A stretch of DNA of 64,000 nucleotides from Candidatus Woesearchaeota archaeon (GCA_016188065.1 JACPIN010000002.1:1-64000), one strand, 5' to 3'. Shown: positions 6,533-11,915, counted from the stretch's first letter. Numbers and translations are program-made. The notes: generated by a model not told the origin, from the letters alone.

Positions 6533-6682
6533 ATGTTAAAAACTTTTACAATCACAAAGAGGATAGCGAAACACGGAAAACAGTCCGTTATAGTTATACC
6601 CAGTTTCTTGCAGTCTGAATTGAAGCCAAAAACCATTGTGGAAATAAAGATTAATGTTATTAAGGAGAGCGAAGATGTTTAA
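6533..6682 (+). CDS. Small SpoVT/AbrB-like protein (49 aa), overlaps the AAA+ gene
   Basis: MLKTFTITKRIAKHGKQSVIVIPSFLQSELKPKTIVEIKINVIKESEDV; not in ORF track but open. Confidence 0.5.
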   Translation: MLKTFTITKRIAKHGKQSVIVIPSFLQSELKPKTIVEIKINVIKESEDV

Positions 6683-7883
6683 AGCAAAAACTTACAAAAA
6701 CAGCGCAGAATTAGCTAATCTGTCAGGCGTTCCTATTTACATGTCTGACATGGTAGATGCTTCTTTAAGGGGGAGATTAAATACTTTCTTGCAGGGAAAT
6801 ACCGGTAGTGGTAAAACCCAGTTAGTCAGGGATGTTATGCAATATTTCGGAGACAAATCCCTATTCATCCTTGGAAGAAACGATATGGATACAAGAGAAT
6901 TATTCCAGCAGGTAAATCCAGAGTTTTTAAAAGCTTTAAAAGAACAAAGGGACATTTCTGGCATGAGGTTCAAGGAGTTAACAGACAAAGTAAACTATCA
7001 TTTCATAGCAGTAGATGAACTGCCAAACTGTGTTCCTGCAGTAAGGGCGCAATTATTTAATCTATTCGATGGCTTTATAGAAATCGACGGAAAAGCTTAC
7101 CCTATTGGCTCAGGATATTCTGTAGGAATGGCAACAGGTAATATTGGCCAGCAATTCACAGAGTCTTCAAACGAATTAGGAAGGGCATTGAAAGACAGGA
7201 TGCATTTAATTATTGACACAGATTACTACAGGCCGCAGCCAATAGATACTTTAGACATGCTAGAGGCTGACAGAAATCCAAGAGTTAACTTTGGTGAAAA
7301 ACATGAAGATAAAACAAAAGAAATCATAGAATCTCATAAAAATTTAAGGAAAAGAGAAATTTCAGATGAAAAATATATTCTTGCTAATTATTTAATTCAT
7401 GGATTGGATTACCTGCCAGATGAATTCGGCGGAAGCAAGACAGCTTTAAAATCTGGCTGGCCAAATAAATTAGAAGGGCATGCATTGGGCTCTGATGAGG
7501 CCTTAATACTGCCTGTCTCACCAAGAGCAGCTAAATCAATAATAACACTAAGCCAGGCTTTAGATTCTATAGTAGAGGAAAAGGGAGCAGAGCCTGATCA
7601 TTTCAATTCAATGATGACTGCATTCAAGTTTGCTTCAGCATATTCGGGGATATTGAATCAGGCTATAGTAATGCAAAATTATGATGAAAATCCTTACAAA
7701 GCAATGGATGCCGTTATAGAGACAACTAAGACTCAATTTAAACAGCAAGAAGATAAAATAATTGCCGGATTAGACATGGCAGGAAGAGGAAAGAAAAGTG
7801 AAAGATTATTAAATGAATTCCAAGGAAGATGGGGATTCATGAGAAATATTTTGGAAAGCTTAGCTGACAGGCAAAAGAGGTAA
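6675..7883 (+). CDS. MoxR-like AAA+ ATPase
   Basis: LQGNTGSGKTQLVRD Walker A, HFIAVDELPN Walker B; likely ATG at 6675 rather than 6654. Confidence 0.8.
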   Translation: MFKAKTYKNSAELANLSGVPIYMSDMVDASLRGRLNTFLQGNTGSGKTQLVRDVMQYFGDKSLFILGRNDMDTRELFQQVNPEFLKALKEQRDISGMRFKELTDKVNYHFIAVDELPNCVPAVRAQLFNLFDGFIEIDGKAYPIGSGYSVGMATGNIGQQFTESSNELGRALKDRMHLIIDTDYYRPQPIDTLDMLEADRNPRVNFGEKHEDKTKEIIESHKNLRKREISDEKYILANYLIHGLDYLPDEFGGSKTALKSGWPNKLEGHALGSDEALILPVSPRAAKSIITLSQALDSIVEEKGAEPDHFNSMMTAFKFASAYSGILNQAIVMQNYDENPYKAMDAVIETTKTQFKQQEDKIIAGLDMAGRGKKSERLLNEFQGRWGFMRNILESLADRQKR

Positions 7884-7890
7884 AATTAAA

Positions 7891-8700
7891 ATGAAATTCA
7901 ACACTTATTTCGGAAAGCCAATTAAGGGTGCATATGAAGATTACATAGAGAGAGCTAAAAATACAAGAGAGGAAAATAACAGAGAAGCCATTGGAACTAC
8001 TGGAATAAATTCAACTCTCGAGAATCCAAGAGATTATATCCAAATCCCGGGAATTAATGGGATTCATAGAAACCCTATAGCCATATCAAAATTTGAAGTT
8101 CAAGGAATGAATGGAAAAAATTATGAAGACACCCACAGAGCTGTTTTCCAATTAGAAAAAGGGCTTTACATTCCAACCCCCGCAATATTCATGCAGCATT
8201 TCAAGAACATTATAGATACTTATCAAAATAATCAAACGATTTTTGACGCATCAGGAAACCCAATAAGTAAAGAAGAGCATGAAGAAATTTACAGACATTT
8301 GACAACTGACTTTAAGGATATATATGGAAATAATCAACCAGGTGCGTGGACATGGCTTAATGCAGGATTTGTTCAAGGAACCGGCTTTAATAATTTGGAC
8401 TTGGAAACAATAATTGGTATTAATGCAGATGGAACTTTTAAAACAAGAAAAGAGCCTTTATTGCCTTGTTTAAATAAAGATGCTTATGCTGAAATAATGT
8501 TTAATGCTCAAGGGATAGCAACAACAAAAACTAGAAAGCAGGAATATAAACGCGGTGAGAATATTTATTTTTATAACCCTGTAAAGGGTGCTGTCGCGGG
8601 GTTCAGGTCGAATTCCGGCAGGGCTGACCTGGGTTGCGGCAGGAATCCTGCCGGCTCGAATTCCTCGCTCGGGGTACGCGCCGCGCGCGATAAGGTATAG
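7891..8700 (+). CDS. DGR target protein 1 (C-terminal variable, CLec/FGE-like predicted)
   Basis: MKFNTYFGKP... start, WTWLNAGF, C-terminus AVAGFRSNSGRADLGCGRNPAGSNSSLGVRAA matches the template repeat. Confidence 0.85.
   Translation: MKFNTYFGKPIKGAYEDYIERAKNTREENNREAIGTTGINSTLENPRDYIQIPGINGIHRNPIAISKFEVQGMNGKNYEDTHRAVFQLEKGLYIPTPAIFMQHFKNIIDTYQNNQTIFDASGNPISKEEHEEIYRHLTTDFKDIYGNNQPGAWTWLNAGFVQGTGFNNLDLETIIGINADGTFKTRKEPLLPCLNKDAYAEIMFNAQGIATTKTRKQEYKRGENIYFYNPVKGAVAGFRSNSGRADLGCGRNPAGSNSSLGVRAARDKV
8590..8676 (+). repeat. DGR variable repeat VR1
   Basis: Aligns to TR 12695-12799 with all substitutions at TR adenines across the main stretch. Confidence 0.88.
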
Positions 8701-10403: not shown

Positions 10404-11161
10404 AATTCAACACTTATTTCGGGAAGAAAGTAGAAGGAGCATATGAGGCTTACTTAGAGAGAACTAAGCAGGAAAAAGAAGATCCTGAACTCAAAACATC
10501 TCAAATATTTGATGTTAGGGCAGATATTAAAGGAGAGGATTATATTAGAATCCCGAATACAAATATTATAATAGCAAGGCAGGAGCAATATAAAAATAAG
10601 GATTGGGCAGACACACATTATGCTTTAGCAGAAAATGGATTGTTCATGCCCTCTCCTAAAATATTCATGCCTTATTTTGTACAGGTTAGGGATGCTGTTC
10701 AAGGAAAAATTAAATTATATACAGCAGATAATAGAGAAGTTCCAAGAGATGAAGCAGAAGAGCTGTGGAAATACCTCTCAACAAGCCATAAAGGCGGTTG
10801 CTGGACTTGGCTTGACGCTAAATTTTCTCAAGAAAATAACGCTTGGAAGATGACACATACTCATAAAGTAATTCAGAAAGGAAAAGAATTGAAAGGAAAA
10901 GCCGAAACACTTGAAAGCTGCATAAGAGAAGACGGTTTTGTAGGCTTGGATTTCAATTCACAAGGATTGCCAATTAAAAAATCTTCTTTAAGCAAATACA
11001 AGCAAGGAGAGAATATTCAGTATTGGCATCCAAGAAACGGCACTGTCGCGAGGTTCGATGCCGAATCGGGTAGGGTCGGCCTCAGTTGCTTCTGGAATCC
11101 GCGGTACTCGAATCCTGCCCTCGGGGTATTTTCATGCGCCGAAGGCGCGCAAAAAAATTAA
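10400..11161 (+). CDS. DGR target protein 2
   Basis: MKFNTYFGKKVEGAYEAYLE start shared with target 3, WTWLDAKFS, C-term VARFDAESGRVGLSCFWNPRYSNPALGV. Confidence 0.83.
   Translation: MKFNTYFGKKVEGAYEAYLERTKQEKEDPELKTSQIFDVRADIKGEDYIRIPNTNIIIARQEQYKNKDWADTHYALAENGLFMPSPKIFMPYFVQVRDAVQGKIKLYTADNREVPRDEAEELWKYLSTSHKGGCWTWLDAKFSQENNAWKMTHTHKVIQKGKELKGKAETLESCIREDGFVGLDFNSQGLPIKKSSLSKYKQGENIQYWHPRNGTVARFDAESGRVGLSCFWNPRYSNPALGVFSCAEGAQKN
11042..11128 (+). repeat. DGR variable repeat VR2 (diverged)
   Basis: Codon-for-codon alignable to TR but with substitutions at non-adenine template positions. Confidence 0.75.
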
Positions 11162-11162
11162 G

Positions 11163-11915
11163 ATGAAATTCAACACTTATTTCGGGAAGAAAGTAGAAGG
11201 AGCATATGAGAAATATCTGGAGGAGTCTAAAACTGCCGAAAATCATACAGAGTTAATAGAAAAACCGATTACAGGCAAGATTCAAAACGGAAATGAATAT
11301 TTAATTTTGCCAGGAAGAAAACATGGAAGCTATGAATATCCTGATTTGTTAGTTTCAGCAAAAAGAAGTCATAATGGAGAAAAATGGAATCAAGCGCACG
11401 AATCTTTAAAGCAGGAAAATTCTTTTATGCTGACTTTAAGGCAGTATGTTGACTTCCTTAATTTATTAAAATCAGGAAAAGCATATGATGGAAATGGAAA
11501 AGGCATAGATAAAACAAGGCTAGATGGTATTTTAGATGACATAGCAACTGTAAGGTCTCCTTGGAGGGCTGAATGGCTTGACGCTAAATTCAGCTCAAAA
11601 GGAATTGTGAAAAAAAGTTACAGTATTGCCTATCACAAGATAACTCTAAATGGAGATTTAGAGGAAGTAACAGAGCCTTTAGATGACTGCTTATTAAGTG
11701 ATAAACAGATTAATCTCGAAGATTGGTTAAGAAAAGCAACTCCTCATGGTCTTCCAGCTCCAGATACGAGCAATGGAAGTTTGTATTATTGGCCACCTGC
11801 AAACAGAAAAGTCGCGAGGTTCTGGTCGTATTCCGGCTGGGCTGGCCTGGTTTGCGGCAGGGATCCTGGCGGCTCGGATTCCTCGCTCGGGGTACGCGCC
11901 GCGAAAATTAGGTAG
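11163..11915 (+). CDS. DGR target protein 3
   Basis: Start at 11163 matches the first 47 nt of target 2; C-term VARFWSYSGWAGLVCGRDPGGSDSSLGVRAA. Confidence 0.85.
   Translation: MKFNTYFGKKVEGAYEKYLEESKTAENHTELIEKPITGKIQNGNEYLILPGRKHGSYEYPDLLVSAKRSHNGEKWNQAHESLKQENSFMLTLRQYVDFLNLLKSGKAYDGNGKGIDKTRLDGILDDIATVRSPWRAEWLDAKFSSKGIVKKSYSIAYHKITLNGDLEEVTEPLDDCLLSDKQINLEDWLRKATPHGLPAPDTSNGSLYYWPPANRKVARFWSYSGWAGLVCGRDPGGSDSSLGVRAAKIR
11811..11894 (+). repeat. DGR variable repeat VR3
   Basis: Aligns to TR; 14 of 18 template adenines changed, no non-adenine change in the 22-codon GTC..TCG stretch. Confidence 0.9.

Follow-up and report, generated by a model that had tools for sequence, protein, structure and literature searches.

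Across DPANN archaea, the target genes of diversity-generating retroelements (DGRs) are found within an operon that encodes a MoxR-type AAA+ ATPase and a protein combining a zincin-like HExxH motif with a VWA domain (the zincin-VWA protein), and genome comparison indicates that this linkage is real. The operon described here lies at positions 6533-11915 of a 64,000-nt stretch (the window) of an archaeal genome of 881 kb in 26 contigs. Its genes are ordered AbrB-like, MoxR-type AAA+, target 1, zincin-VWA protein, target 2 and target 3, followed by the template repeat (TR) and the reverse transcriptase (RT) gene (Table 1). The original prediction had placed target 1 between the AAA+ ATPase and the protein with HExxH and metal-ion-dependent adhesion site (MIDAS) motifs, with targets 2 and 3 directly after it; all of these genes were found at the predicted coordinates, as were the tight junctions, with the start of target 2 overlapping the end of the zincin-VWA gene at 10400-10403 (ATGA) and target 2 ending at 11161, next to the start of target 3 at 11163. 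We suggest that the operon probably encodes an intracellular recognition device, in which a MoxR/zincin-VWA core takes interchangeable sensors that dock through a shared N-terminal tag and are here diversified by a DGR.

The same gene order was sought in related genomes, and the interleaved arrangement AAA+/target/zincin-VWA/target recurs in many DPANN loci. The order AbrB/AAA+/target/VWA/target with an RT was found twice in genome G026 and once in G021, where the RT is split, and G167 has AAA+/target/target/VWA/target with a divergent RT. A metagenome scan seeded with the AAA+ protein yielded 31 loci, many in the same order, and a genome scan yielded 24 named loci. The arrangement is also kept in divergent units beyond the first AAA+/VWA profile (L115, L137, L138 and L139; divergent branches, alignment A1 versus A5, hhalign 97%). 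Homologues of the zincin-VWA protein are present in 17 of 201 related genomes, and its closest named relatives come from metagenome-assembled genomes (MAGs) of Woesearchaeota, Pacearchaeota and Nanoarchaeia. A DGR RT lies within 10 kb at 7 of 20 zincin-VWA loci, against 0.56 expected from rounded genome sizes and RT counts (P = 1.6e-7). DGRs are common in these archaea (53 of the 201 genomes), mostly apart from any such operon, so that mere chance proximity of the DGR to an operon unrelated to it has to be considered; we give it scarcely any credence, because the linkage exceeds expectation, the interleaved order is conserved, the genes are interleaved rather than merely adjacent and the variable regions (VRs) sit in genes inside the operon.

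Two features characteristic of MoxR-vWA ternary systems were found in the enzyme core: a MoxR-clade AAA+ ATPase, on the basis of the AAA_5 match, and a VWA protein with an intact MIDAS, on the basis of alignment and a structural model. The start of the AAA+ gene is more likely the ATG at 6675 than position 6654, because the similarity of homologues begins at 6675. K47, E115 and R175 are invariant in the AAA+ alignment (A2); the profile matched ClpC/Hsp104 and the uncharacterized ATPase 2r44 in the PDB. The protein also gave a weak bpMoxR match (E = 0.15). Across 20 homologues of the zincin-VWA protein (A1), H83, H87, D133 and the MIDAS residues are invariant and E84 is nearly so. A Pfam search found no match for the protein itself and weak VWA matches in single homologues only, and a sequence search of solved structures returned nothing useful for it. 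A protein search found 333 relatives among the candidates that it scored; those listed lacked a Pfam domain and, where named, were mostly 'hypothetical'. The AlphaFold2 model (pLDDT 87) matched VWA domains in the PDB, that of NorD among them. This last match, and the fact that MoxR-VWA pairs of known function are mostly chaperones (PMC7159879), would suit an assembly or metal-insertion chaperone of the NorQD or RavA-ViaA kind; the targets would then be its clients or adaptors, diversified for regulation and not for conflict. We consider this quite improbable, as no client enzyme recurs at these loci and the recurrent partners are instead recognition modules and DGR targets. A contig labelled bacterial, from a Candidatus Aerophobetes MAG (L166), carries the AAA+ and zincin-VWA genes without DGR targets, by either transfer or misbinning.

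The retroelement has the hallmarks of a DGR, in that the RT gene adjoins the TR and VR-TR differences fall at template adenines only. VR1 and VR3 fit the TR in cis. VR2 differs from that TR at 24 positions, 11 of them at adenines, and we conclude from its adenine-only fit to a second template (TR2) on contig C6 of the same genome (L030) that it is templated in trans by the C6 DGR, whose RT is 73% identical to that of the window. A VR on contig C15 likewise matches the C6 TR, with 12 mismatches of which 11 are at adenines; the gene that contains it lies directly 3' of another AAA+ gene at the contig end (C15:208-2371). On inspection, the C15 AAA+ protein resembles that of L137. One operon thus draws on two DGRs, and a single template matches genes of two operons. 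The RNA leaders of the two DGRs are near-identical (window 12530-12650 and the end of C6); C6 ends inside the shared leader sequence, probably at an assembly break. The RT-16 RNA that forms the template leader also lies 5' of the TR in seven related DGRs. In the closest metagenome relative, L079, the AAA+ protein and the body of target 1 are 91-92% identical to those of the window and the VR core is 70% identical; L079 probably used a different template, because 8 of the 20 differences in the VR core fall outside TR adenines.

Table 1 Features of the operon and its retroelement (window coordinates)
Feature	Position	Strand	Details
AbrB/SpoVT-like protein, 49 aa	6533-6682	+	Overlaps AAA+ start; from sequence look and conservation
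MoxR-type AAA+ ATPase	6675-7883	+	Pfam AAA_5, E = 2e-8
DGR target 1	7891-8700	+	N-terminal tag, linker, variable C-terminal domain
VR1 core	8593-8658	+	Cis TR; 10 mismatches, 10 at TR adenines, P = 2e-7
Zincin-VWA protein, 566 aa	8703-10403	+	HELAH codons 83-87, D133; MIDAS D386/S388/S390/T472/D495
DGR target 2	10400-11161	+	ATGA overlap with zincin-VWA
VR2 core	11045-11110	+	TR2 on contig C6; 9 mismatches, all at A, P = 1.3e-6
DGR target 3	11163-11915	+	Variable C-terminal region
VR3 core	11811-11876	+	Cis TR; 14 mismatches, all at adenines, P = 4e-11
RT-16 RNA (RF03019), template RNA leader	12566-12698	+	Rfam, 50.7 bits
TR	12698-12797	+	66-nt core 12698-12763; 3' shared segment 12784-12795
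Candidate bulge-helix-bulge intron	12766-12783	+	18-nt TR segment missing from VR1 and VR3 (TR/VR comparison)
DGR reverse transcriptase	12824-13933	+	Pfam RVT_1, E = 1.6e-22; PHROG 1423, E = 1.7e-116
G12 tract in RT gene	13760-13771	+	In frame here; candidate phase-variation switch

The AlphaFold2 model of target 1 (pLDDT 84) is mostly confident for residues ~45-269. Compared with PDB folds, it came closest to the DGR variable protein 5vf4 and then to lectins, at an E value (0.095) that is not significant, and a sequence search of the PDB with the targets found no match. Viral DGRs diversify tail fibres and MoxR-VWA pairs occur in archaeal viruses (PMC7159879), which raises the question of whether the operon is a proviral or mobile module, with tail-assembly AAA+ and VWA proteins and a tropism-switching DGR. 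We regard this as very unlikely: two scans of a viral contig collection for the zincin-VWA protein found no relative, neither that protein nor the targets matched PHROG families beyond weak unknowns, and tRNA or rRNA genes adjoin several of the loci.

The slots between and after the AAA+ and zincin-VWA genes hold proteins of several kinds. DGR targets of one class (CLEC) occupy them at many loci and a second target class occupies them in L126, L039 and L169; the targets of L089 look unlike CLEC too. At loci with no RT nearby, the slots are filled by leucine-rich repeat (LRR) proteins in L040 (PF13855, E = 1.5e-39), by proteins built of 46-aa propeller-like repeats in L038 and by helical repeats in L158, and L170 has a set of propeller-like paralogues, at least 11 in number. 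Targets 1, 2 and 3 share an N-terminal tag, MKFNTYFGK...GAYE.Y.E, and have their variable regions at the C-terminal end. Such a tag is common to the proteins of an operon even where their bodies align only at chance level (in L137, for example, the tags agree at 29/41), and in the model of target 1 it forms a low-confidence helix on a disordered, likewise low-confidence linker. The original prediction had cast the hypervariable proteins as recognition modules of a MoxR-VWA effector with a metallopeptidase, in a possible immune or self/non-self system, and it is partly supported. Recurrence, module exchange and shared tags bear out that they are part of the unit, and recognition is probably the role they play in it.

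Alternatively, the variable proteins could mediate contact with a host or neighbour as effectors or adhesins, with the AAA+/zincin-VWA pair acting as their assembly or export chaperone. DPANN archaea are often symbionts, and a role in symbiosis has been proposed for the variable proteins of nanoarchaea (PMC5006420). Yet membrane-like segments and hydrophobic N termini are absent from all 85 CLEC (variable-class) targets, in which no segment exceeds 1.6 in hydrophobicity, and from all 14 targets of the second class. No secretion gene recurs in the mapped neighbourhoods, and the replacement of targets by LRR, propeller and helical repeats on the same tag is unlike adhesins. We therefore consider a symbiotic role unlikely, although it deserves more weight than the chaperone or proviral explanations.

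If the operon does encode an intracellular recognition device, the MoxR-type AAA+ ring would work with the zincin-VWA protein, and the targets would be sensors docked to this assembly by the tag on its flexible linker. The DGRs would rewrite the C-terminal surface of the sensors, those of targets 1 and 3 from the cis template and that of target 2 from the second DGR in trans. Once a ligand is bound, the AAA+/VWA pair would remodel the complex at the expense of ATP and release the metallopeptidase as the output, which most plausibly would act on an invader or in a suicidal response.

Several observations weigh against this interpretation. PADLOC gave weak generic ATPase matches for the AAA+ protein and none for the zincin-VWA protein or the targets. 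HGCGH replaces HExxH in L036 (5836-7599) and L159 (9980-11707), making these members presumably inactive as enzymes; the glutamate of HExxH is thus lost in some members, and catalysis would not be universal. When the tag profile of L170 was compared with all open reading frame (ORF) N termini, the best non-self matches were the L038 repeat proteins (E = 0.002) and the L037 CLEC targets (E = 0.013); this favours a tag common to different operons, but the match across operons is weak. An immune role would, moreover, lean on analogy with bacterial MoxR-vWA systems. Finally, the original prediction had named DGRs without MoxR/VWA linkage in related genomes as a result that would count against it, and most RTs and DGRs of the relatives are indeed unlinked. 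We do not judge this to be fatal, because there are also modules that lack a DGR and the linkage turns up at scattered points of the RT tree, in which linked and unlinked RTs interdigitate and well-supported branches force at least eight changes (part of the linked set was gathered through zincin-VWA or AAA+ proteins).

The TR itself contains a segment that its VRs lack. A segment of 17-25 nt interrupts 16 related TRs just 5' of the 3' shared part (those of the window, L030, L031, L032, L033, L047, L100, L109-L114, L125, L137 and L138), and is missing from the VRs in TR/VR pairs with a readable boundary, with homology resuming on both sides. The sequence 3' of the segment is also adenine-altered (L031 and L100). 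Two 3-nt bulges flank a 4-bp helix, and cutting each bulge after its second nucleotide reproduces the segment boundaries exactly (CUCG-AA^A-UCU...AGA-CGAG-AY^U); this is the bulge-helix-bulge (BHB) geometry. The four central pairs are complete in all 16 TRs and the three inner pairs in 15 of them, and the inner helix varies on both sides in several TRs (UCU/AGA, UUU/AAA and UUC/GAA). The segment length is no multiple of three in 7 of the 16. One VR of L032 (10419-11111) is an exception in that it still has the segment, altered at adenines and with 3 nt deleted; for the second VR of L032 and for L100 11199 the script gave no clean alignment. The TRs of L034 and L115 lack the segment. Genes for a splicing endonuclease (PF01974, E = 1.2e-30) and an RtcB ligase (PF01139, E = 1.1e-130) are present in this genome. 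On the basis of these sequence comparisons, the template RNA is probably spliced before mutagenic copying. Skipping, in which the RT jumps over a hairpin, is the less likely cause: the stem loses its 3' strand and retains its 5' strand, a pattern that suits BHB excision better than a jump at the stem base. TR/VR gaps outside the BHB family were mostly alignment noise beyond the repeats and were set aside. The RtcB gene (C1:53601-56354) has two matched pieces in one long frame, as if it bore an intein. Archaeal BHB introns likewise have a 4-bp central helix and two 3-nt bulges and are excised after nucleotide 2 of each; the difference is the location here, within a DGR template repeat. No report of an intron in a DGR template was found in the literature searched, whose coverage excluded most subscription journals.

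Apart from the G12 tract in the RT gene, the 881 kb contain a single G/C run of eight or more. A frame change occurs at a G9-G10 tract in ten related RTs and at a (GA)n repeat in an eleventh, and the frame is open in L047, L106, L143 and the window RT. Poly-G tracts occur in the DGR RT genes of L033 (592), L167 (13296), L183-L186, L189, L190, L192 and L194. Across 101 genomes there are 19 G9CG matches, of which 10 fall within DGR RT sequence or immediately next to it. Homopolymer assembly error may alter the length of a tract, not its presence. The coexistence of in-frame and frameshifted alleles suggests phase variation of the RT; no report of this for DGRs was found in the same literature. 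Programmed frameshifting as the explanation for split RTs was rejected, as the loci do not share one kind of frame change and the reading frame is intact across some tracts. We tentatively propose a wider scheme, less secure than the recognition device itself, of a DPANN immune-receptor-like platform in which BHB splicing of the template by the tRNA-splicing machinery would be required before mutagenic reverse transcription and the poly-G switch would confine hypermutation to a subpopulation.

The AbrB-like protein had no Pfam match; it is 74-78% identical to counterparts at the same position in three loci (L031, L032 and L033) and is a probable autoregulator. Between target 3 and the TR lie a small antitoxin-like ORF and a PemK/MazF toxin gene (12141-12473; together 11954-12473). 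Two paralogous nucleotidyltransferase-HEPN pairs lie at 14004-15286 and 16449-17751, a UPF0175 gene at 15441-15728 and a VapB-type antitoxin gene at 17786-18079. A 64-nt direct repeat, 88% identical between its copies (4587-4650 and 4938-5001), precedes the operon.

If these interpretations are right, DGR-diversified MoxR-vWA detection systems extend to minimal, mostly symbiotic archaea, and some DPANN DGRs gain a concrete candidate function; a 2024 survey had found the DPANN DGRs of clade 5F not associated with conflict domains (PMC10907252). An intron in the template and phase variation of the RT would each add a new layer of control over targeted hypermutation. The finding that one tag can carry LRR, propeller or helical repeats in place of DGR targets points to a receptor platform of general use.

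Of the systems already described, COG3864/DUF2201 metallopeptidase-VWA proteins also have an N-terminal HExxH and a C-terminal VWA domain, and an ATPase gene adjoins two of three retrieved examples. Membership was rejected: no significant profile relation was found outside the VWA domain (hhalign 7%), and PF13203 has no match in this genome. Nanoarchaeal DGRs and AvpA (Paul 2015, PMC4372165; 2016, PMC5006420) are similar in their DPANN-type hosts, in the presence of several DGRs per genome and in their C-terminal variable region; their targets, however, are described as orphans with no AAA+/VWA partner, and none of the targets described here matches a PDB entry by sequence. The beta-propeller ternary systems (Kaur et al. 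2020, PMC7159879) share MoxR, VWA and beta-propeller components, with the propeller fused to the vWA protein, whereas L170 has separate tagged propeller-like paralogues in slots filled by DGR targets in its relatives. The closest known kind is the bacterial MoxR-vWA systems with DGRs. In bacteria, the variable target has been proposed to sense and the MoxR ATPase to relay to an effector (Dore et al. 2024, PMC10907252). Among the window genes there was no match to VMAP, iSTAND or an FtsH third component. Shared with the MoxR-vWA ternary (VMAP) systems with DGRs (PMC7159879, PMC10907252) are a MoxR AAA+ ATPase, a VWA component, peptidase domains, a proposed sensing of invaders and a DGR-written variable region, which has a lectin fold in the known systems and may have one here. 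The system described here differs in being archaeal, in the fusion of its metallopeptidase-like domain to the VWA domain and in its sensors, which are separate tagged proteins with genes interleaved among those of the enzymes.

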